DNA of 64,000 bases, taken from Herbidospora cretacea (GTDB taxonomy: Bacteria > Actinomycetota > Actinomycetes > Streptosporangiales > Streptosporangiaceae). The stretch lies in the NCBI RefSeq assembly GCF_001570605.1, contig NZ_BBXG01000012.1, positions 124,001 through 188,000 on the forward strand, read 5' to 3'. Shown here piece after piece: positions 55,495 through 64,000 of the stretch. Under the pieces are notes generated by a model. It made no database searches. It was not told the origin of the DNA and saw nothing but the letters and a program-made list of their open reading frames with translations. Every line of letters starts with the position of its first letter. Position 1 is the first letter of the stretch. The translations under genes were made by a program, and so were the position numbers.

Positions 55495-57774
55495 ATGCCG
55501 TACCGCCCCCCGTTGATCGCGCGCGAGTACTTCGTCGCCGACCCTCCCGAGCTGCCCCTGCGGCGGCACGGCGAAGGTGGGCTCGCGAAGCTGGCGCGGG
55601 CCGAGGTGGTGGCCTCCGACGGGAGCGGCGTCACCCTCAAGGGGGTCACCTCGACCGAGGAGACGCTCGTCGTCCAGGTGAGCGCGGCGGGCGAGGGGAT
55701 CATCCGGGTCAAGCTGAGCGAGCAGGCCGACGCCAGGACCCGGTCGGCGCGGGCCCTGCGGCTGACCCGGCCGGTGGAGTCGGCCGCCGAGGTCACCGTC
55801 GGGGACGAGAGGGTCGTCGTGGACGCGGGGGCCGTACGGGCGGAGATCCGCCTGAACCCCTGGAACCTGCGCTTCACCGACCCCGGCGGACGGACCCTGA
55901 CGGAGCAGGACCCCGGCCGTCCCGATATTTCCGGACGCCTCCGCACTCTCCCCTTCGGCCGCTCCCAGGTCGACGGGGTCACCCTGGCCTACCACGAGAC
56001 GTTCCTGGTCCCGGCCGACGAGGCGTTCACCGGGTTCGGGGAGTCGTTCACGCCGCTCGACAAACGCGGGCAGCGGCCGCTGATGTGGAACTTCGACGCC
56101 TTCGGGGCGGAGTCGCAGCGGGCGTACAAGAACGTGCCCTTCTACCTGTCCAGCCGGGGATACGGGATCGTCGTCGACAGCGGGATGCCGGTCGAGTTCG
56201 ACATGTGCCAGTCGACCCACAGCGACGTGCAGATCGTGGTGCCCGACGACCTGATCGACTACTACGTCCTGGGCGGCCCCGAGCCCGCCGACGTGCTGCG
56301 ACGGCTCCACGCGCTCACCGGTCCGGCGGTGCTGCCGCCCAAGTGGGCGTTCGGGGCGTGGATCTCCTCGGGGTTCTTCCGGGACAGCCAGGAGCGGGTG
56401 CTCGACCGGGCGCGCAAGATCCGCGATCGGGGCATCCCGTGCGACGTGCTGCATCTCGACACGTTCTGGCAGATCGACGGACACTGGTCCGATCTGCGGT
56501 GGGACCGGGCGGCCTTCCCCGATCCGGAGGGAATGCTGGCGGAGCTGGACAGGCAGGGCTTCAAGGTCTGTCTCTGGATGAACCCGTACATCTCCCATCT
56601 GAGCCCCTCCTTCGAGGAGGCGGCGAGCAGCGGCTACCTCCTGCTGACCCGCGACGGCGAGGCCTACGTGGCCGACGCCTGGCACGGCTCCTACCCGGCC
56701 TGCGGCATCGTCGACTTCACCAACCCCGCCGCCCGGACCTGGTTCCGCGGCCTGCTGAAAGGGCTGCTGGAGCAGGGCGTGCAGGTCTTCAAGACCGACT
56801 TCGCCGAGGGGGTTCCGGCCAACGCGGTCGCCTACAACGGGATGTCCGGGACGGAACTGCACAACGTCTACTCGCTGCTGTTCAACGACCTGGTCGCCGA
56901 GGTGACCCGCGAGGTCGCCGGGCACGGCCTGGTCTGGGCCCGCTCGTCCTACCTGGGCGGCCAGCGCCACCCGGCGCAGTGGAGCGGCGACGTCGACGCG
57001 ACCTACCCGGCGATGGGCAGCACCATCCGGGGCGGCCTGTCGCACGGTCTGTCCGGCATCGCGTTCTGGAGCCACGACGCGGGCGGTTTCACCGGGACGC
57101 CGACGCCCGACCTGTTCGTCCGGTGGGCCCAGTTCGGGGCGCTGTCTCCGCTGGTGCGCTTCCACGGCACCACCAGCCGCGAGCCGTGGGAGTTCCCCGA
57201 GAACGCCGAACGCGCGGTGGTCGCCGCCCTGCGGCTGCGCTACCGGCTGATGCCCTACCTCTACTCGACGGCCGTCGAGGCGGTCGAGACGGGCCTGCCG
57301 ATCATGCGCGCCCTCTGTGTCGACCAGCCGCACGACCCGGTGAGCTGGCAGGCCGACCTCCAGTACCTCCTCGGCCGCGACCTCCTCGTCGCCCCGATGA
57401 CCTCCGCCGACGGCACCAGGGACGTCTACCTCCCGGCCGGGACCTGGGTCGACCACTGGACCGGCGAACACCACGCGGGCGGCCGCCACATCCGCGTCTC
57501 CCCGCCCCTGGACCGCATCCCCCTGTACGGACGCCTCGGCGCCCTCATCCCCACCACGACCCCCGGCGTGACCGTGACCGACGGCCCGGAGATCTCCCTG
57601 CTCGTGTACGGCCTCCCCGACGGCGAGAGCCGGACCGTCGTCCGCGACGACGACGGGGAGACGGTCGTGACGGCCGTCCACGACCGAGAACGGCTCGTCG
57701 TGCGGACGGAGGGGCCCAAGACGGTCGTCCAGGTGGAGATCGTGGGCGGCGCGGCGGAGATCGCCATCGAGTAG
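55495..57774 (+). CDS. GH31 alpha-xylosidase (YicI-like)
   Basis: 759-residue glycosidase, close in length to E. coli YicI (about 770). The N-terminal beta-sandwich includes TGFGESFTPLDKRGQ and WNFDAFG. The barrel holds WAFGAWISSGFF, DVLHLDTFWQ, VCLWMNPYISHLSP, the nucleophile Asp435 in GVQVFKTDFAEGVP, GLVWARSSYLGGQRHPAQWSGD (acid/base Asp in WSGD) and ISGIAFWSHDAGGF-type block. The KTDFAEG form fits alpha-xylosidases. It should release alpha-xylose from xyloglucan-like oligosaccharides. ATG at 55495 has GGAG 7 nt upstream. Divergent partner of the GH42 gene. Confidence 0.9.
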   Translation: MPYRPPLIAREYFVADPPELPLRRHGEGGLAKLARAEVVASDGSGVTLKGVTSTEETLVVQVSAAGEGIIRVKLSEQADARTRSARALRLTRPVESAAEVTVGDERVVVDAGAVRAEIRLNPWNLRFTDPGGRTLTEQDPGRPDISGRLRTLPFGRSQVDGVTLAYHETFLVPADEAFTGFGESFTPLDKRGQRPLMWNFDAFGAESQRAYKNVPFYLSSRGYGIVVDSGMPVEFDMCQSTHSDVQIVVPDDLIDYYVLGGPEPADVLRRLHALTGPAVLPPKWAFGAWISSGFFRDSQERVLDRARKIRDRGIPCDVLHLDTFWQIDGHWSDLRWDRAAFPDPEGMLAELDRQGFKVCLWMNPYISHLSPSFEEAASSGYLLLTRDGEAYVADAWHGSYPACGIVDFTNPAARTWFRGLLKGLLEQGVQVFKTDFAEGVPANAVAYNGMSGTELHNVYSLLFNDLVAEVTREVAGHGLVWARSSYLGGQRHPAQWSGDVDATYPAMGSTIRGGLSHGLSGIAFWSHDAGGFTGTPTPDLFVRWAQFGALSPLVRFHGTTSREPWEFPENAERAVVAALRLRYRLMPYLYSTAVEAVETGLPIMRALCVDQPHDPVSWQADLQYLLGRDLLVAPMTSADGTRDVYLPAGTWVDHWTGEHHAGGRHIRVSPPLDRIPLYGRLGALIPTTTPGVTVTDGPEISLLVYGLPDGESRTVVRDDDGETVVTAVHDRERLVVRTEGPKTVVQVEIVGGAAEIAIE

Positions 57775-57811
57775 GCCCGGCGATCAGGGCCGCTTCGAGA
57801 TCATGGTCGAG

Positions 57812-57817
57812 TAGGGT
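57812..57817 (+). promoter_or_regulatory. Candidate -10 box for the 57825 gene
   Basis: TAGGGT ends 7 nt before the GTG at 57825; predicted transcription start is 57824-57825. No ribosome-binding site is present. Confidence 0.4.
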
Positions 57818-57824
57818 CCCGCTG

Positions 57825-58202
57825 GTGCCCGCAGAACGCCTGGCGACCGAGGTCGCGGAGATCCACGACTTCTACGGCGGCCTCTTCCTCGTCGACGCCG
57901 GGAGCGGGGAGGAGCTGGGCGTCGAGCCGCTCCCGGGCGGCGGAGGCTCACGATCGGGTTACGTTCGCTGGGAGCGGTGGGACGGCCGCCCGCCGCGTGA
58001 CGAAGCCTGCGCACTCCTCGACCAGAGGCGGCTCGCGGTGCCCTCCGGGGTGATCGAGCTGCGCGGCGGTTTCAGCATGGATATGCCTGGCTGGGCGTTC
58101 GACCTGGCAGAACCCGGTGCCGTGTGGTCCATGCGCGTCGACCGGCATGTGCTGGCCGAACTGCCGATGCTCACCTATCTGGTGATCAGGTTCTGGCCCT
58201 AG
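57825..58202 (+). CDS. Hypothetical protein
   Basis: 125-residue soluble acidic protein: ATEVAEIHDFYGGLFLVDAGSGEELGVEPLPGG at the start (in two blocks), a central GVIELRGGFSMDMPGWAFDLAEPGAVWSM-type beta region and a hydrophobic C-terminus (LPMLTYLVIRFWP). No family recognised. Codon use is like its neighbours. GTG at 57825 is chosen on codon use and the upstream -10 box. It lies 50 nt after the GH31 gene and 61 nt before the first kinase gene; a link to either is not shown. Confidence 0.65.
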   Translation: MPAERLATEVAEIHDFYGGLFLVDAGSGEELGVEPLPGGGGSRSGYVRWERWDGRPPRDEACALLDQRRLAVPSGVIELRGGFSMDMPGWAFDLAEPGAVWSMRVDRHVLAELPMLTYLVIRFWP

Positions 58203-58251
58203 AGCCGGCGCGGGGTTGACGAATGGTCAAATCGGGCGGGTCCGGTTTCGC

Positions 58252-58257
58252 TATTCT
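58252..58257 (+). promoter_or_regulatory. Candidate -10 box for the leaderless kinase operon mRNA
   Basis: TATTCT ends 6 nt before the ATG at 58264, so transcription is expected to start on the A of ATG. No ribosome-binding site is present. A TTGACG lies too far upstream (58216) to be its -35. Confidence 0.55.
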
Positions 58258-58263
58258 CCCGCT

Positions 58264-59754
58264 ATGGCCGAATCGATCGGGGAACGACTGGCCTCCCGAT
58301 ACCTCCTGCTGCGCCCCCTCGGCGCCGGCGGCATGGGCACCGTCTGGCTGGCGCGGGACGAGATGCTCGACCGCGAGGTCGCCGTCAAGGAACTGCGGGT
58401 TCCCGAGGGCATGGGGGATCGGGAGCGGGCGGAGCTCGTCACCCGGGTGATGCGCGAGGCCGAGGTGACCGCACGGCTGCGGCACCCGGCCGTCGTCAGC
58501 GTGCACGACGTCCTGGTCGAGGACGGCCGTCCGTGGATCGTGATGGAGCGGCTCAACGGGCGCTCTCTCTCCGCAGAGATCGCCGCCCACGGCGGCATGC
58601 AGGCGGGCGCGGTGGCCGAGGTCGGGGCCCGGATGGTCGACGCGCTCGCGGCGGCGCACGCCCACGGCGTGCAGCACCGCGACGTCAAGCCGGGGAACGT
58701 GTTCCTGACGGTCGACGGGCGGGTGGTGCTGACCGACTTCGGCATCGCGCGGCAGGCCGACACGACCAACCTCACCGGCGACGGGATGCTGATCGGCTCG
58801 CCGGGCTACATCGCGCCCGAGCGGCTGGAAGGCGACCCGGGCGGGCCCGCCTCCGACCTGTGGTCGCTCGGGGCGACCCTCTACACCGCGCTGGAGGGGG
58901 TGCCGCCGTTCCGGGGGAACCACGTGCAGGTCATCCAGGACACGCTGACCTCGCCGGTGCCCCTGCCGCGCACGACCGGGCCGCTGGCCACGCTGATCGC
59001 CTGGCTGATGGCGCGCGACCCGGCCGACCGGCCCGACGCGGCGACCGCCGGGCGGCTGTTCCAGGAGATCGTCAAGGGCGGCAACCCGCAGATCGCCCCG
59101 CCGAAGCGCCACACTGTCCCGTGGATCGCGCTGGCCGCCGGGCTCGCCGCCGTCGTGGTGGCGGCCGTGGTGGTCGTCGTTCCGTGGGAATCCGGCGAGG
59201 AGCCGGCCGTGGCGCGTCAGCGCGGCCCGGCGCCGGTGTTCGGGCAGGCCGTGGACTTATGCCGGGTGGTCCCCGCCGCCCAGGTCAAGACGCTGCTCGG
59301 GCAGGACGCCCGCCCGCAGGAGATCGACGGCGGCTGCCAGTGGACGATCAAGGGCACCGGCCTGCGCCTGGAGCCCGCCACCGACTCCGACACCCCCGAC
59401 TGGTGGGACCTCACCCCGGAGGCGGCCCGCGCCCTCTACGGGGGCATCCAGCGCCGCGTCGCCAACCAGCCCCGTGACGGCTCCCTCATCTGGTACGAGA
59501 TCGGCGCCAACCGCCGCCTCCCCACCGTCGCCTCGGCGGTCCGGCCGCTGACCGGCGTCGGCGAGGAGGCGTTCACCTGGGACGTCACCTCGGCCGAAGG
59601 CCGGATCATCGGCGTCGACGTCTACTTCCGCGTCGGCGACTTCGTCGGCCTGCTCGAATACGCCGACCTGGGCGAGCGCACCGCCGACCAGATGCGCACG
59701 GGCGCCGAGACCGCCGCCCGCACCGCCGCCGACTCCCTCTGGGACCTGGCGTGA
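58264..59754 (+). CDS. Receptor-type Ser/Thr protein kinase with DUF3558-like extracellular domain (1)
   Basis: 496-residue membrane kinase. Cytoplasmic kinase domain at about 12-270: glycine loop LGAGGMGTVWLA, Lys in VAVKEL, HRDVKPGNVFL, metal-binding Asp in LTDFGIARQ, and PGYIAPERLEG; it is an RD kinase with an activation loop Thr-rich stretch (DTTNLTGDG). One membrane segment at about 287-306. The extracellular part has Cys333 (VDLCRVVPAAQVKTLLG) and Cys358 (GGCQWTIKG) followed by LTGVGEEAFTWD, a DUF3558/lipoprotein-like sensor pattern; no PASTA repeats. First gene of a coupled trio, overlapping the next by 4 nt. Confidence 0.92.
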   Translation: MAESIGERLASRYLLLRPLGAGGMGTVWLARDEMLDREVAVKELRVPEGMGDRERAELVTRVMREAEVTARLRHPAVVSVHDVLVEDGRPWIVMERLNGRSLSAEIAAHGGMQAGAVAEVGARMVDALAAAHAHGVQHRDVKPGNVFLTVDGRVVLTDFGIARQADTTNLTGDGMLIGSPGYIAPERLEGDPGGPASDLWSLGATLYTALEGVPPFRGNHVQVIQDTLTSPVPLPRTTGPLATLIAWLMARDPADRPDAATAGRLFQEIVKGGNPQIAPPKRHTVPWIALAAGLAAVVVAAVVVVVPWESGEEPAVARQRGPAPVFGQAVDLCRVVPAAQVKTLLGQDARPQEIDGGCQWTIKGTGLRLEPATDSDTPDWWDLTPEAARALYGGIQRRVANQPRDGSLIWYEIGANRRLPTVASAVRPLTGVGEEAFTWDVTSAEGRIIGVDVYFRVGDFVGLLEYADLGERTADQMRTGAETAARTAADSLWDLA

Positions 59755-61022
59755 CGCTGATCGCCGGCCGCTACCGGCTCGCCGAACCCCTCGGAAAGGG
59801 CGGCGCGGGCACGGTCTGGCGCGCCCACGACGAGCTGCTGCGGCGCGAGGTCGCGGTCAAGCAGATGCGGACCCCCAGCGACCTCGGCCCCGGTGAGCTG
59901 GCCGAATACACCTCCCGGGCGATCGGGGAGGCGCGCGCCGCCGGGAAGCTCAACCACCCGTCGATCGTGAAGATCCACGACGTGGTGCCCCACGAGGGCG
60001 CGCCGTGGATCGTGATGGACCTCGTGCCTGGCACCTCCCTCGACAAGCTGCTGCCGCTGCCGAGCGAACGGGTCGCCGAGATCGGCCTGGCCGTCCTCGA
60101 CGCCCTGGAGCTCGCCCACGCCCACGGCATCCTGCACCGGGACGTGAAACCGGCCAACGTGCTCGTCGGCGACGACGGGCGGGCCATGCTGGCCGACTTC
60201 GGCATCGCCGCCCCCTTCGGCGCCGACCCGGCCGACGGGTCGGGGTCGCCGGCGTACATGGCCCCGGAGCGGTTCCGCGGCCTGCCCGCCGGGCCGCCCT
60301 CGGACCTGTGGTCGCTCGGCGCGACCCTCTACGCGGCCGTGGAGGGCCGGGGCCCCTTCCACCGCAACCTGCCCGCCGCCGTCGTGGCGGCCGTCGTCAT
60401 GCACGACCCGCCCCCGATGGCGCAGGCCAGCCCGGCCCTGGCCCGCGCGGTCGGCGCGCTCCTCGCCAAGGACCCCGCCCACCGCCCACCGGCGGCCACC
60501 ACCCGTCACCTGCTCCGGGACGCCGTCGCCGCCGTCCCCGCCCGCCCCCGCCGGACCGGCAAATGGGCCCTCGCCGCCGCCCTCACGATCGGCGTCGGCG
60601 TCGCCGCCGGATGGGCCGCCTCCCAGTTCACCTCGGGCCCGGCCGAGGTCCCCGGCCGGTTCACCGCCGCCCCCGACGCCTGCCAGAGCCTCACCTCCGC
60701 GCAGATCACCCGCCTGCTCGGCACCCAGGCCGACGCCGAACCGACGTCCGACGGCGGCTGCCGCTGGATCAACCGCACCGGCGGCGCCGAAGTCGTCGTC
60801 GGCTACCGCCTGACCACCGCAGCCGCCCAGAACCGCCCCGAAGGCGCCGAGAACGTGACGGGCGTCGCCGACGAGGCATACGTGGCCCCCGCCGACGGCG
60901 GCGCCACCGTCTGGTTCCGGAGAAGCAACCTGTCCGCCCAGGTCACCTACAAGTCGCCCGGCGACGACACCACGGAGCGCGCCCGCCAGGCCGCCCAGCT
61001 CGTCGCAGCCGGAATCGGCTGA
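59751..61022 (+). CDS. Receptor-type Ser/Thr protein kinase with DUF3558-like extracellular domain (2)
   Basis: 423-residue paralogue of the preceding kinase. Kinase domain at about 7-255: LGKGGAGTVWRA, VAVKQM, HRDVKPANVLV, LADFGIAAPF, SPAYMAPERFRG. The membrane segment is at about 278-300 (WALAAALTIGVGVAAGWAA). The short extracellular domain has Cys311 (DACQSLTSAQITRLLG) and Cys337 (GGCRWINRT) with VTGVADEAYVAP, parallel to kinase 1. The activation loop lacks the Thr-rich stretch of kinase 1. GTG start overlaps the stop of kinase 1 (GTGA), and the third gene follows 15 nt after the stop. Confidence 0.92.
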   Translation: MTLIAGRYRLAEPLGKGGAGTVWRAHDELLRREVAVKQMRTPSDLGPGELAEYTSRAIGEARAAGKLNHPSIVKIHDVVPHEGAPWIVMDLVPGTSLDKLLPLPSERVAEIGLAVLDALELAHAHGILHRDVKPANVLVGDDGRAMLADFGIAAPFGADPADGSGSPAYMAPERFRGLPAGPPSDLWSLGATLYAAVEGRGPFHRNLPAAVVAAVVMHDPPPMAQASPALARAVGALLAKDPAHRPPAATTRHLLRDAVAAVPARPRRTGKWALAAALTIGVGVAAGWAASQFTSGPAEVPGRFTAAPDACQSLTSAQITRLLGTQADAEPTSDGGCRWINRTGGAEVVVGYRLTTAAAQNRPEGAENVTGVADEAYVAPADGGATVWFRRSNLSAQVTYKSPGDDTTERARQAAQLVAAGIG

Positions 61023-61037
61023 CCAAGGAGTCCCCCA

Positions 61038-64000
61038 ATGTCCGAAGACCCCCAGAAGCCCCGGAACCACCTGCGCGCGGTCCCCACGCCCCCGGAGGAC
61101 ACGCCCCCAGCGGACCCCCCGGGCGAGGCCTTCGGCTCTCCTGTACGGGATGCGCGCCCCGCCTACGACGAGGACGACCCCGCCACGGGCGAACTCCCCA
61201 GGGCGACCGGCATGCCCTTCCCGCGCCGGACGGGGGAACCCGGCGCCCCGAGAATCGGCGACCCGACCAGGGTCGCGTCCTGGCGCTCACCCACCCAGCC
61301 TCCGGAGAGACCCGCCTCCGAGAAGCCCTCCGAGACCCCCTTCCCAGCGGAACCCCCACAACGACCGGGCCGGGGACCGAAGGGCTCCGGCCCGGCCCCC
61401 GACGAGGCCGACCCCTTCGGCGCGATGCTCCGCGACCTCGACAAGACCGCGTCCGCCAAGGACGGCGACCAGGCTGAGACCCCAGGCCGCACAAGCGATG
61501 GCGCGCCGGGCCGACCGAGCGACGGCGGCCCCGCGAACCGTCTGAGCGGCGGCGGCCCGGCCGACCGCCGGAGTGACGCTGGGTCGACCGGCCGTCTGGG
61601 CGGTGGCGGCTCGGGCGACCGCCAGGGTGGGGGAGGCGCTTCAGGTCTGGGTGATGGTGGCCCTTCCGACCGTCAGGGCGACGCCGGCGCGACTCGACGT
61701 CTGGGCCCAGGTGGTCCGGCTGACCGTCAGGTTGATGGCGGACCTGCTGCCCGTTTCGGTGACAGCGGTTCGGCCGGCCGTCCGGGCGGCAGTGGATCGG
61801 GTGACCGTCAGGGTGATCGCGCTGCCGGTTCCCGGCTGGGAGACGGCGGCTCCGTGAGTCAGCCCCGTGGTGGGGATGCCGCCCAGTCCAAGCCCGGGGA
61901 GTCGCCCGCTCGGCCGCAGGGCGGCGAGCCCGCCGGCAACGAGCCCGCGACCACGCAGTTACGCGACAGCGCCTCCGAGTTGCCCCGCCGCATCCCGAAG
62001 TCGGCCAAGCGGCAGGAGGCGCCGCCCCCTTCGTCCCCGTCCGACCGGCCGGGCTGGTTCGAGACCCCGTCGGGCCAGCCGCGTCAGCCGGACCTCCCGC
62101 AGCCTCCGCCCGGTCAGATCCGCCCGCCCGCGCTGTTCGGTTCGCCCGTCCCCGAGCCGCCACCCGGCGGCCGGTCCGACTTCCGTGACTTCGGCCGCCC
62201 GGCCGCCCCCGGACGCGGCGGCGGCCCGGTGCCCCACCACCCCTCGGACCAGCACGCGCCGGGCGCCAACGGCGTCTCCCCGGTAGGGGAGAGGCCCGAG
62301 TCCGGCCCGAACTTCGACGCCTTCACCGCCCACCGGTCCCCCCAGCCTCCCGGTAACCAGCCCTGGCCAGCCGCCGGCCCCCAATGGCCCGGCATGCCCG
62401 AGCCGCCCGCCGACCCGCGCCAGTCCCCGCCGCCCCCGCCCGTCACCCCGCCGCAGCAGCCCGCGGCTTCTGGCTGGCCCCCCGCGCAGGACCACGGCTG
62501 GCCGGACCCGGCCTCCCGGACCGACCCGCAGGCCGACGCCCCCTGGGCGGGCATGGTGCCCAAGGCCGACCCCCAGTGGCCCGACGCGGACGCGCACGCC
62601 GTCACGCAGTGGCCCGGCATCGAGCCCGTCGGCGACGCCCAGCGCCCCGGCGCGCAGTGGCCCGGGAGCGAATCCCCGAGCGACGGTCAGCGGTCCGCCG
62701 CGCAGTGGCCCGGGAGCGAATCCCCGGGCGACGGTCAGCGTCCTGGCGCGCAGTGGCCTGGGAGTGAGTCGAAGGCCGAGCCTCCCGCCGCGCAGTGGCC
62801 CGGGGCCGAGCCTCAGGGGGAGACGCGGCGGGCCGGTGGGCAGTGGCCCGGGGCCGAGTCCAAGGCCGACGCCCCCTGGCCCGGGGCCGAGTCGCGGCCC
62901 GACGCGCAGCTTCGCGGAGCGGGTTCGCCCCCCGGCGCCCAGTGGCCCGGTGCGGAGTCGTCGGGCGACCACCCGTGGCCCGGGGCCGAGGCCAGACCCG
63001 GACAGGACAGCCGTTCCGAGTCCCGTCAGGAGGGGTCCGGGCTGACCGCCCCGGGGTCGGCGTGGTCCACGCCCTCCGAGGGCACCGCCTGGCCACCCTC
63101 CGCCGAGGAGGCGCGGGCCGCGTCCGAGGCGCCCGGCCCGCACGGTCACGTCCCCCGGGGCAGTGAGCGCTGGCGCGCCCCCTCCGAGGGGAACCGGCCG
63201 CCGCAGGGCCCGTGGTCGCCCTCGGCCCCGCAGAGCTCGCTCAACGGGTCGGGGCCCGAGGGCACGGCTGTCCTGGGCCAGCCCCCGGCCGGTGGGGGCG
63301 GGGAGCCGTGGCAGGCGCAGAGCGGGTGGCAGCAGAACTCCGGGCCGTGGCAGGGCACCACCCAGCCCGGCTGGGCGCAGCCGCCCGGTCCGCCGCGCAA
63401 GAACAGGTGGCTCTGGCCGCTGGTCGCGGCTGTGGTGGTGCTGGTCGTGGCGGGCGGCACGTTCGTCTTCTTCCAGACCACGGGGGGCGAGACCCCGCAG
63501 GCCGCGCCGCCCAGGACGGGGGCCTCCCCGGGGGCGACGGGCGCGGCTCCGGCCGTGCCGAACGGCGACCCCAAGTCGACCGACTTCGACGTCTGCGCGA
63601 TGCTCGACCCGGAGCAGACCGAACGGCTCGTCCCGGCCGCCAAGATCGACATGCGGATGAACGACAACCGCGACGACAGCCTGGTCAGCTACGTCAGGTG
63701 GACGTGTGAGTGGACGAACCGCAACATCTCGTACGGCGAAGTGAACCGCCAGCGGCAGATCACGGTGAACGTGGCACGCTACGAGGCCATCGGCGACACC
63801 ACCGCCGACAAGGCGGCCACGATCCAGTACGACGGCCAGAAGCGCCAGTGGGACTACACCGCCTCGGTCTCCAACGACGAGCGCTACTACTCCAAGCCCC
63901 AGGTCTACTCGGGCATCGGCGACGCCGCCATCGCCCAGTACCAGTGGACGCGGGACGACGACTACCGCTACGCCTTCGGCACCGGCTTCGGCCGGGTCGG
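61038..64000 (+). CDS. Large single-pass membrane protein with disordered repeats and DUF3558-like domain (3' end beyond window)
   Basis: At least 987 residues, open to the window edge. Residues 1-790 are a cytoplasmic, disordered Pro/Gly/Asp/Ser-rich region with two repeat types (Gly-rich GDRQGD units and AQWPGSES units). The membrane segment is at about 792-812 (WLWPLVAAVVVLVVAGG). Outside it, Cys853 (FDVCAMLDPEQTERL) and Cys890 (WTCEWTNRN) are followed by YSGIGDAAIAQY, the same order as in both kinases upstream. ATG at 61038 has AAGGAG 9 nt upstream. Co-transcription suggests it is a partner or substrate of the kinases. Confidence 0.88.
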   Translation, partial: MSEDPQKPRNHLRAVPTPPEDTPPADPPGEAFGSPVRDARPAYDEDDPATGELPRATGMPFPRRTGEPGAPRIGDPTRVASWRSPTQPPERPASEKPSETPFPAEPPQRPGRGPKGSGPAPDEADPFGAMLRDLDKTASAKDGDQAETPGRTSDGAPGRPSDGGPANRLSGGGPADRRSDAGSTGRLGGGGSGDRQGGGGASGLGDGGPSDRQGDAGATRRLGPGGPADRQVDGGPAARFGDSGSAGRPGGSGSGDRQGDRAAGSRLGDGGSVSQPRGGDAAQSKPGESPARPQGGEPAGNEPATTQLRDSASELPRRIPKSAKRQEAPPPSSPSDRPGWFETPSGQPRQPDLPQPPPGQIRPPALFGSPVPEPPPGGRSDFRDFGRPAAPGRGGGPVPHHPSDQHAPGANGVSPVGERPESGPNFDAFTAHRSPQPPGNQPWPAAGPQWPGMPEPPADPRQSPPPPPVTPPQQPAASGWPPAQDHGWPDPASRTDPQADAPWAGMVPKADPQWPDADAHAVTQWPGIEPVGDAQRPGAQWPGSESPSDGQRSAAQWPGSESPGDGQRPGAQWPGSESKAEPPAAQWPGAEPQGETRRAGGQWPGAESKADAPWPGAESRPDAQLRGAGSPPGAQWPGAESSGDHPWPGAEARPGQDSRSESRQEGSGLTAPGSAWSTPSEGTAWPPSAEEARAASEAPGPHGHVPRGSERWRAPSEGNRPPQGPWSPSAPQSSLNGSGPEGTAVLGQPPAGGGGEPWQAQSGWQQNSGPWQGTTQPGWAQPPGPPRKNRWLWPLVAAVVVLVVAGGTFVFFQTTGGETPQAAPPRTGASPGATGAAPAVPNGDPKSTDFDVCAMLDPEQTERLVPAAKIDMRMNDNRDDSLVSYVRWTCEWTNRNISYGEVNRQRQITVNVARYEAIGDTTADKAATIQYDGQKRQWDYTASVSNDERYYSKPQVYSGIGDAAIAQYQWTRDDDYRYAFGTGFGRV
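61512..61857 (+). repeat. Gly/Asp/Arg-rich degenerate repeats in the large membrane protein
   Basis: About seven imperfect units of 15-18 residues alternating GRLG-GGGSG and DRQGD-GGPA type blocks, for example ADRRSDAGSTGRLGGGG and SDRQGDAGATRRLGPGG. Unit borders are approximate. Confidence 0.6.
62637..62997 (+). repeat. WPG(S/A)ES repeats in the large membrane protein
   Basis: Nine or so copies of a short motif AQWPGSES or PWPGAES at intervals of about 10-17 residues. Copies near 62655 and 62703 share long identical DNA stretches, so the repeat is recent or under exchange. Confidence 0.7.

Follow-up and report, generated by a model that had tools for sequence, protein, structure and literature searches.

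Which signals bacterial receptor Ser/Thr kinases sense, and whether these proteins act as homodimers or in mixed complexes, are largely open questions. The second is raised by a locus of Herbidospora cretacea (genome of 8.28 Mb), in which two receptor Ser/Thr kinases (K1 and K2) and a kinase-less membrane protein (M3) are encoded one after the other at the end of the window, i.e. the whole stretch of 64,000 nucleotides analysed here (contig C12:124001-188000). The three proteins probably constitute one heteromeric membrane receptor kinase module with M3 as a kinase-less co-receptor, its assembly, ligand and output being postulated from the evidence presented below.

The adjacency and coupling of the three genes claimed by the original prediction were recovered from the ORF coordinates: K1 runs from an ATG at 58264 to a TGA at 59752-59754, K2 begins with a GTG at 59751 (a 4-nt overlap with K1), and the ATG of M3 (61038) lies 15 nt past K2, M3 reaching 1243 aa when read beyond the window end in the contig (Table 1). 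No sigma-70 promoter or terminator was found at 57700-61100, a search that the GC-rich genome makes uninformative. Membrane segments were defined as the strongest hydrophobic stretch within the C-terminal part of each trio protein. The number of Lys and Arg per 15 residues was higher before than after this segment in K1 (4.45 against 1.56, 55 sequences), K2 (4.23 against 1.46, 56 sequences) and M3 (2.85 against 1.42, 59 sequences), which predicts a cytoplasmic position for the kinase domains and the M3 arm and an extracellular one for the C-terminal parts.

Table 1. Features of the K1-K2-M3 locus (window positions, except where prefixed L009).
Feature	Position	Strand	Evidence
K1, 496-aa single-pass receptor Ser/Thr kinase	58264..59754	+	ORF; Pkinase 153.4 bits
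K1 kinase domain, aa 15-260	58306..59043	+	Pfam PF00069
K1 transmembrane segment	59125..59181	+	Hydropathy peak of C-terminal 300 aa
K1 extracellular PsbP/PknH-sensor-like domain	59182..59751	+	AlphaFold2, Foldseek, hhalign
K2, 423-aa single-pass receptor Ser/Thr kinase	59751..61022	+	ORF; Pkinase 144.7 bits
K2 kinase domain, aa 8-249	59772..60497	+	Pfam PF00069
K2 transmembrane segment	60567..60623	+	Hydropathy peak of C-terminal 270 aa
K2 extracellular domain	60624..61019	+	hhalign 99.5 to K1, 97.8 to M3d1, 97.2 to M3d2
M3, kinase-less putative co-receptor	61038..64000, on to L009:8769 beyond the window	+	ORF
M3 cytoplasmic Pro-rich arm, ~793 aa	61038..63416	+	Tandem repeats of 27, 48, 33 bp
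M3 transmembrane segment	63417..63473	+	Hydropathy peak of C-terminal 520 aa
M3 extracellular domain 1 (M3d1)	63579..64000 in the window; whole L009:7579-8160	+	AlphaFold2, hhalign d1-d2 98.8
M3 extracellular domain 2 (M3d2)	L009:8215-8766, beyond the window end	+	AlphaFold2, hhalign

Judged by score and catalytic residues, K1 and K2 are Hanks-type Ser/Thr kinases. Both exceed the Pfam cut-off of 31.7 bits for Pkinase; the catalytic signature KHRDKNDFG is present in 55/55 K1 sequences and KH[QRH]DKNDFG in 55/56 K2 sequences, the remaining one (L101) being truncated by a contig end. The HRD position of K2 reads HQD in 27, HRD in 25 and HHD in 3 sequences, with one cut sequence (n = 56). An activation-loop Thr occurs in all 53 K1 loops found and in 20/54 K2 loops; since the other 34 K2 loops have no Thr, activation of K2 by loop phosphorylation is unsure, and these counts suggest that K2 may need K1 or be activated in another way. 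In the part of M3 inside the window, no kinase match was obtained in Pfam up to E 1, and no output domain was recognised by Pfam. PASTA kinases (PknB, PrkC) have the kinase domain type and the single-pass topology in common with K1 and K2, and differ from them in their extracellular PASTA repeats: as had been predicted for this sensor, K1, K2 and M3 (its in-window part and its ectodomain) gave zero PASTA matches at E up to 1, and K1 and K2 scored 222.5 and 202 with the PASTA-kinase model NF033483, i.e. under half of its cut-off of 450.

Profile comparison indicates that the four trio ectodomains are homologous in all six pairs. The landmarks described in the original prediction (a first Cys, a Cys-x-Trp motif and a Gly-containing turn) are present as DLC...GGCQW...GVGEEA in K1, DAC...GGCRW...GVADEA in K2 and DVC...TCEW...GIGDAA in M3; its claim that all three proteins end outside the membrane in one domain type holds as to the type and needs amending as to number, because M3 bears two copies, not one, the second beyond the window end, which gives the trio four such domains. 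After thinning of near-copies (46 of 55 K1, 44 of 56 K2 and 46 of 59 M3 sequences retained), the Cys pair is invariant in K1 (46/46), K2 (44/44) and both M3 domains (46/46). In addition to the hhalign probabilities of Table 1, K1 matched M3d1 at 97.2 and M3d2 at 95.6, the latter pair having been weak (42.3) with earlier, smaller alignments. Scores of the six domain pairs were 58.5-138.4, against 10.8-17.7 for reversed profiles (probability under 1) and a maximum of 21.9 in 180 column shuffles. The tandem ectodomain (421-453 aa in the 46 thinned sequences) is the conserved part of M3; the K2 ectodomain has 132-133 aa in Herbidospora against 147-202 aa in other genera (thinned set).

Unrelated folds of the C-terminal domains, named beforehand as evidence against a shared sensor, were not what was obtained: the AlphaFold2 models (pLDDT 94.2 for the K1 domain and 89.4 for the M3 domain pair) gave K1 and both M3 domains one predicted topology (two short helices, three strands, a long helix, 4-5 strands and a long C-terminal helix), and the K2 fold was assigned from its profile match to K1 (99.5). 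When the K1 domain was submitted to Foldseek, the highest TM scores among the 50 matches listed were those of the PknH sensor (4esq, 0.57) and the TiME protein (7cu9, 0.54), with PsbP, Apa and LpqN also among them (TM 0.27-0.45). The K1 model aligned to 4esq with TM 0.57/0.56, Foldseek probability 1.00 and E 2.1e-3; as no match of this model was obtained at E 0.001, the PknH likeness is one of fold class only. With the two-domain M3 model, the top Foldseek matches were mixed and for the most part meaningless; there were single-domain matches to MTC28, EagT6, PsbP, LpqN and DcrB (TM 0.30-0.48 by target length), which we take to be PsbP/MOG1-type folds. No sequence relatives were found among solved structures up to E 10 with the K1 and M3 ectodomain profiles. 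Filing of the domains as PknH_C was rejected, the matches staying below the cut-offs: a search of this genome with PF14032 gave no match at E 0.001, and the hhalign probability was 0.1-0.4 only, with no sequence-level match.

PknH of Mycobacterium tuberculosis is likewise a receptor Ser/Thr kinase whose sensor is globular, non-PASTA and of the same fold class, and its domain type, like that of the trio, also occurs in lipoproteins (LpqQ, LprH, LppH, LpqA and Rv3705c, as listed in the accessible text of PMC4118811). According to the accessible parts of the respective sources, the PknH cleft has been proposed for ligand binding (PMC3601408), and a small ligand in it has been proposed to alter localisation or oligomerisation (PMC3601408, PMC4118811). 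PknH_C has two intramolecular disulfides (accessible text of PMC3601408), whereas each trio domain has one conserved Cys pair; neither a partner kinase nor a kinase-less partner of PknH is mentioned in the accessible text of PMC3601408 and PMC4118811.

The resemblance to DUF3558 proposed in the original prediction was borne out in substance, formal membership failing in the proteins of this genome. DUF3558 (PF12079) is the sole Pfam family that matches the K1 domain at E up to 1 (10/10 orthologues, best 5e-6) and the most frequent Pfam match of the M3 ectodomain (8/11, with YusW in 7/11), and its Cys and Cys-x-Trp landmarks are present in the trio domains. Bit scores in this genome (K1 21.0-23.4, K2 18.1-18.4, M3 22.5-25.7) are below the gathering cut-off of 34.1, for which reason filing of the domains as DUF3558 was rejected. 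Over the whole genome the four best places of the profile are a kinase on contig C18 (33.2 bits), M3, K1 and K2, all below the cut-off, and the match spans profile positions 8-98 in M3, 30-96 in K1 and 29-96 in K2 (of 173). Comparison with a rough DUF3558 set gave hhalign probabilities of 0.2-20, weak evidence either way, the set having 15 sequences of which at least one (L183) was in the wrong frame. The C18 protein (L240:8585-10342, minus strand), the top DUF3558 match of the genome, is a receptor kinase whose residues are intact and whose C-terminus resembles DUF3558.

Outside the family, nine genomes of one Streptomyces-like genus (placed by inference) carry the domain in secreted, mostly lipobox-bearing, kinase-free proteins, with two adjacent frames bearing it at 7/9 loci (L168-L176); L176 presumably also contains an rtcB-like frame. 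A 16-sequence profile of these proteins matched K1 at 95.7 (over 63 columns, the last third to half of the domain), K2 at 97.9, M3d1 at 96.5 and M3d2 at 97.2 (hhalign; reversed controls 0.1-0.2). DUF3558 lipoproteins and the Streptomyces-like pairs have the Cys ... Cys-x-Trp ... G-x-G-(D/E)-x-A layout in common with the trio; both, unlike the trio, are secreted or lipid-anchored and without kinases. The same domain in secreted proteins offers a tractable route toward the ligand.

A profile scan for M3 in 84,980 species genomes, performed by peptide patterns with which distant relatives may be missed, yielded 58 loci in nine genera, all Streptosporangiaceae: Herbidospora (85-88% M3 identity in six named species), Acrocarpospora, Microbispora, Sphaerimonospora, Planotetraspora, Microtetraspora, Nonomuraea (in which [Actinomadura] parvosata, L137, was counted on our assumption), Planomonospora and Thermoactinospora. 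A viral home for M3 was rejected, as one profile scan with two peptide patterns returned no relative in viral contigs. The order K1-K2-M3 on a single strand is kept at 54/58 loci; the remaining four (L101, L107, L111, L150) are truncated, their contigs starting within K2 or M3. K1 and K2 overlap or are directly adjacent (-11 to +2 nt) in 53/53 cases measured (of 55), by a method that picks the start nearest the stop and favours small values; the spacing between K2 and M3 is close except in L118 (~1.4 kb). The trio neighbourhood, whose absence from related genomes would have spoken against a functional unit, is thus kept across nine genera, while for each of 538 flanking frames (ten reference loci, within ~8 kb, at least 110 aa, antisense frames included) matches in the flanks were limited to at most five genera. 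The flanks differ between genus groups, and no hint of function was found among the neighbours.

Strong K1 (at least 200 bits) and strong M3 (at least 170 bits) are found in an identical set of 38 genomes out of 150 of the family, an overlap compiled from two tables assumed to be drawn from the same 150 genomes. Weaker K1-type matches were present in 28 more of these genomes, and those examined mark a four-gene array. Outside the family, where 17 candidates were scored per genome, weak matches (E 7e-4 to 8e-8; the best one per genome lying in an open frame of 238-402 aa) were obtained in 11/197 class genomes, nine of them of the Streptomyces-like genus. In some genomes K2 is followed by a tandem pair of M3-type proteins (L139, L144; G095, G190, G246, G283, G304, G322), and in G293 an additional strong K1 occurs with no additional M3.

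In the four-gene array of relatives (L044-L049, L238, L239; eight examined), every protein has the extracellular domain of the trio. Seven of the eight read kinase, degenerate, kinase, degenerate, and L046 reads kinase, degenerate, degenerate, kinase. According to the alignment, the first kinase of L049 has R in place of the catalytic K. The second protein of that array lacks any kinase match and resembles M3 in combining the domain with a membrane segment and a Pro-rich arm. Two further loci contain two degenerate genes (L043) and three kinases with intact residues plus an M3-like frame (L042). This frame (L042:6147-7328, minus strand, 394 aa) lies on the opposite strand beside three kinases of the trio type, and its overlap with the long reading frame of the first kinase leaves its limits unsure.

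A domain tree was built from 16 loci chosen for genus spread and the array proteins, 100 of 103 rows being kept after removal of three long branches. Each trio slot forms its own clade (bootstrap/SH-aLRT: K1 99/94, K2 99/85, M3d1 100/99, M3d2 100/99), the two M3 domains group together (97/89), and K1 and the first array protein form one clade (100/99). Array positions one and two form clades; the third and fourth do not (3 and 2 changes). The grouping of K1 with the first array protein, together with the slot clades, indicates that the two modules share an ancestor and that the trio positions have been kept apart. Among explicit origins, M3 as a fusion of the second and fourth array receptors was rejected (AU p 0.006 and 0.005) and simple tandem duplication of K1/K2 was disfavoured (AU p 0.011); a grouping of K2 with the third array protein is compatible with the tree test (AU p 0.065).

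A giant disordered arm serving as phosphorylation scaffold, proposed from the H. cretacea protein, is not supported as a general feature of M3. Arm length (starts inferred as the first ATG/GTG after K2) is not conserved and varies from 22 to 800 aa in 55 sequences: it is at most 60 aa in 15/55 orthologues (24-29 aa in Thermoactinospora and two Planomonospora), and at least 494 aa in nine, all of them Herbidospora or Acrocarpospora. The part that appears mostly persistent is a small Thr-containing (Thr-Pro) juxtamembrane stretch. T-x-P (x not P) is found within 45 residues before the membrane in 49/55 M3 sequences, against a mean of 22.3 and a highest count of 35 in 200 shuffles, the pattern having been picked after viewing the arms and in related species that are not independent (24/55 are Nonomuraea); Thr is absent from the last 45 arm residues in 2/55.

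It is plausible that the trio co-assembles or senses a common ligand. Activation of Hanks-type kinases commonly proceeds by dimer-mediated activation-loop phosphorylation. In a heteromeric receptor, the four related ectodomains would surround an extracellular ligand or a component of the wall, either as a hetero-oligomer or with a cleft between them, and this assembly would place the kinase domains of K1 and K2 close enough to trans-phosphorylate; M3 would contribute ligand binding through two domains without a kinase, and its cytoplasmic Thr site may be phosphorylated and then read by a phospho-binding partner. The kept gene order, the overlap or abutment of the K1 and K2 genes, the homology of all six domain pairs, the co-occurrence of K1 and M3, the turnover of the flanks, the slot clades and the T-x-P site argue for such a complex, as does the correlation of ectodomain distances beyond kinase-domain distances (partial r 0.18-0.40, p 0.001-0.002), a modest one from which shared ancestry is not fully removed. 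The sister array, which pairs active kinases with pseudokinases bearing the same domain, points the same way. Weighing on the other side are the second K1 of G293, the genomes with double M3, the L118 gap and the K2 loops without Thr, and separate receptors derived by duplication would have shared domains as well.

This last arrangement is the main rival and seems rather unlikely: one ancestral sensor would have been duplicated, and K1, K2 and M3 would sense separate related ligands independently, being together only by co-transcription. Duplication accounts for the homology of the shared domain, and the single clade of K1 and the first array protein implies that the sensor type predates the trio; it fits less well with an order unbroken at 54/58 loci while the flanks turn over, with strong K1 and M3 confined to the same 38/150 genomes, and with an M3 that has no recognised output domain of its own. 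Alternatively, M3 could be mainly a substrate, the receptor pair phosphorylating the arm, the arm docking downstream proteins and the ectodomains only localising M3. The long Pro/Ser/Thr-containing arm of Herbidospora and Acrocarpospora and the persisting juxtamembrane T-x-P are what such a role would predict, whereas an arm of 22-800 aa, made partly of repeats, next to a conserved tandem ectodomain makes it improbable. Even less probable is a decoy or inhibitor, whose tandem domains would sequester ligand or keep K1 and K2 apart until ligand arrives; a kinase-less receptor with duplicated domains and the degenerate kinases of the related array would suit this role, and the present data do not separate activation from inhibition.

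Several Ser/Thr kinases also stand side by side in another actinomycete, Streptomyces coelicolor (SCO4775-4779: PkaH, SCO4776, PkaD, PkaI, PkaJ). The accessible text of PMC4416010 suggests that multiple kinases are necessary there for one process, the spore wall, and reports independent transcription with gaps of 93-173 bp; it mentions neither a kinase-less member nor a shared ectodomain, both of which the trio has. No description of the trio layout was found in the accessible literature searched. The trio would belong to a known kind, receptor Ser/Thr kinases with a PknH-like sensor fold, and be new in its multi-protein layout. Its presence in Herbidospora and related soil actinomycetes suggests that bacteria, like animals and plants, may assemble cell-surface kinase receptors from several different partner proteins. 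More tentatively, it is possible that Streptosporangiaceae use obligate heteromeric receptor Ser/Thr kinases, with fixed non-interchangeable subunits (active kinases, pseudokinases and kinase-less tandem-domain co-receptors) joined by one PsbP-like extracellular domain, as a bacterial counterpart of the HER2/HER3 or BRI1/BAK1 receptors. The trio is small, self-contained and widely kept, and its sister array mixes active and degenerate kinases, which makes heteromeric signalling directly testable.

Past the window end, three tandem kinase-like membrane proteins are encoded convergently with the trio (L009:11817-17423, i.e. C12:191817-197423, minus strand). One of 557 aa retains intact residues (HLD, DFG), two of 636 and 674 aa are degenerate, and weak matches to PD40 or beta-propellers were obtained for their C-terminal parts. 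In other Herbidospora (L033-L037), convergent kinase-like frames adjoin the trio too.
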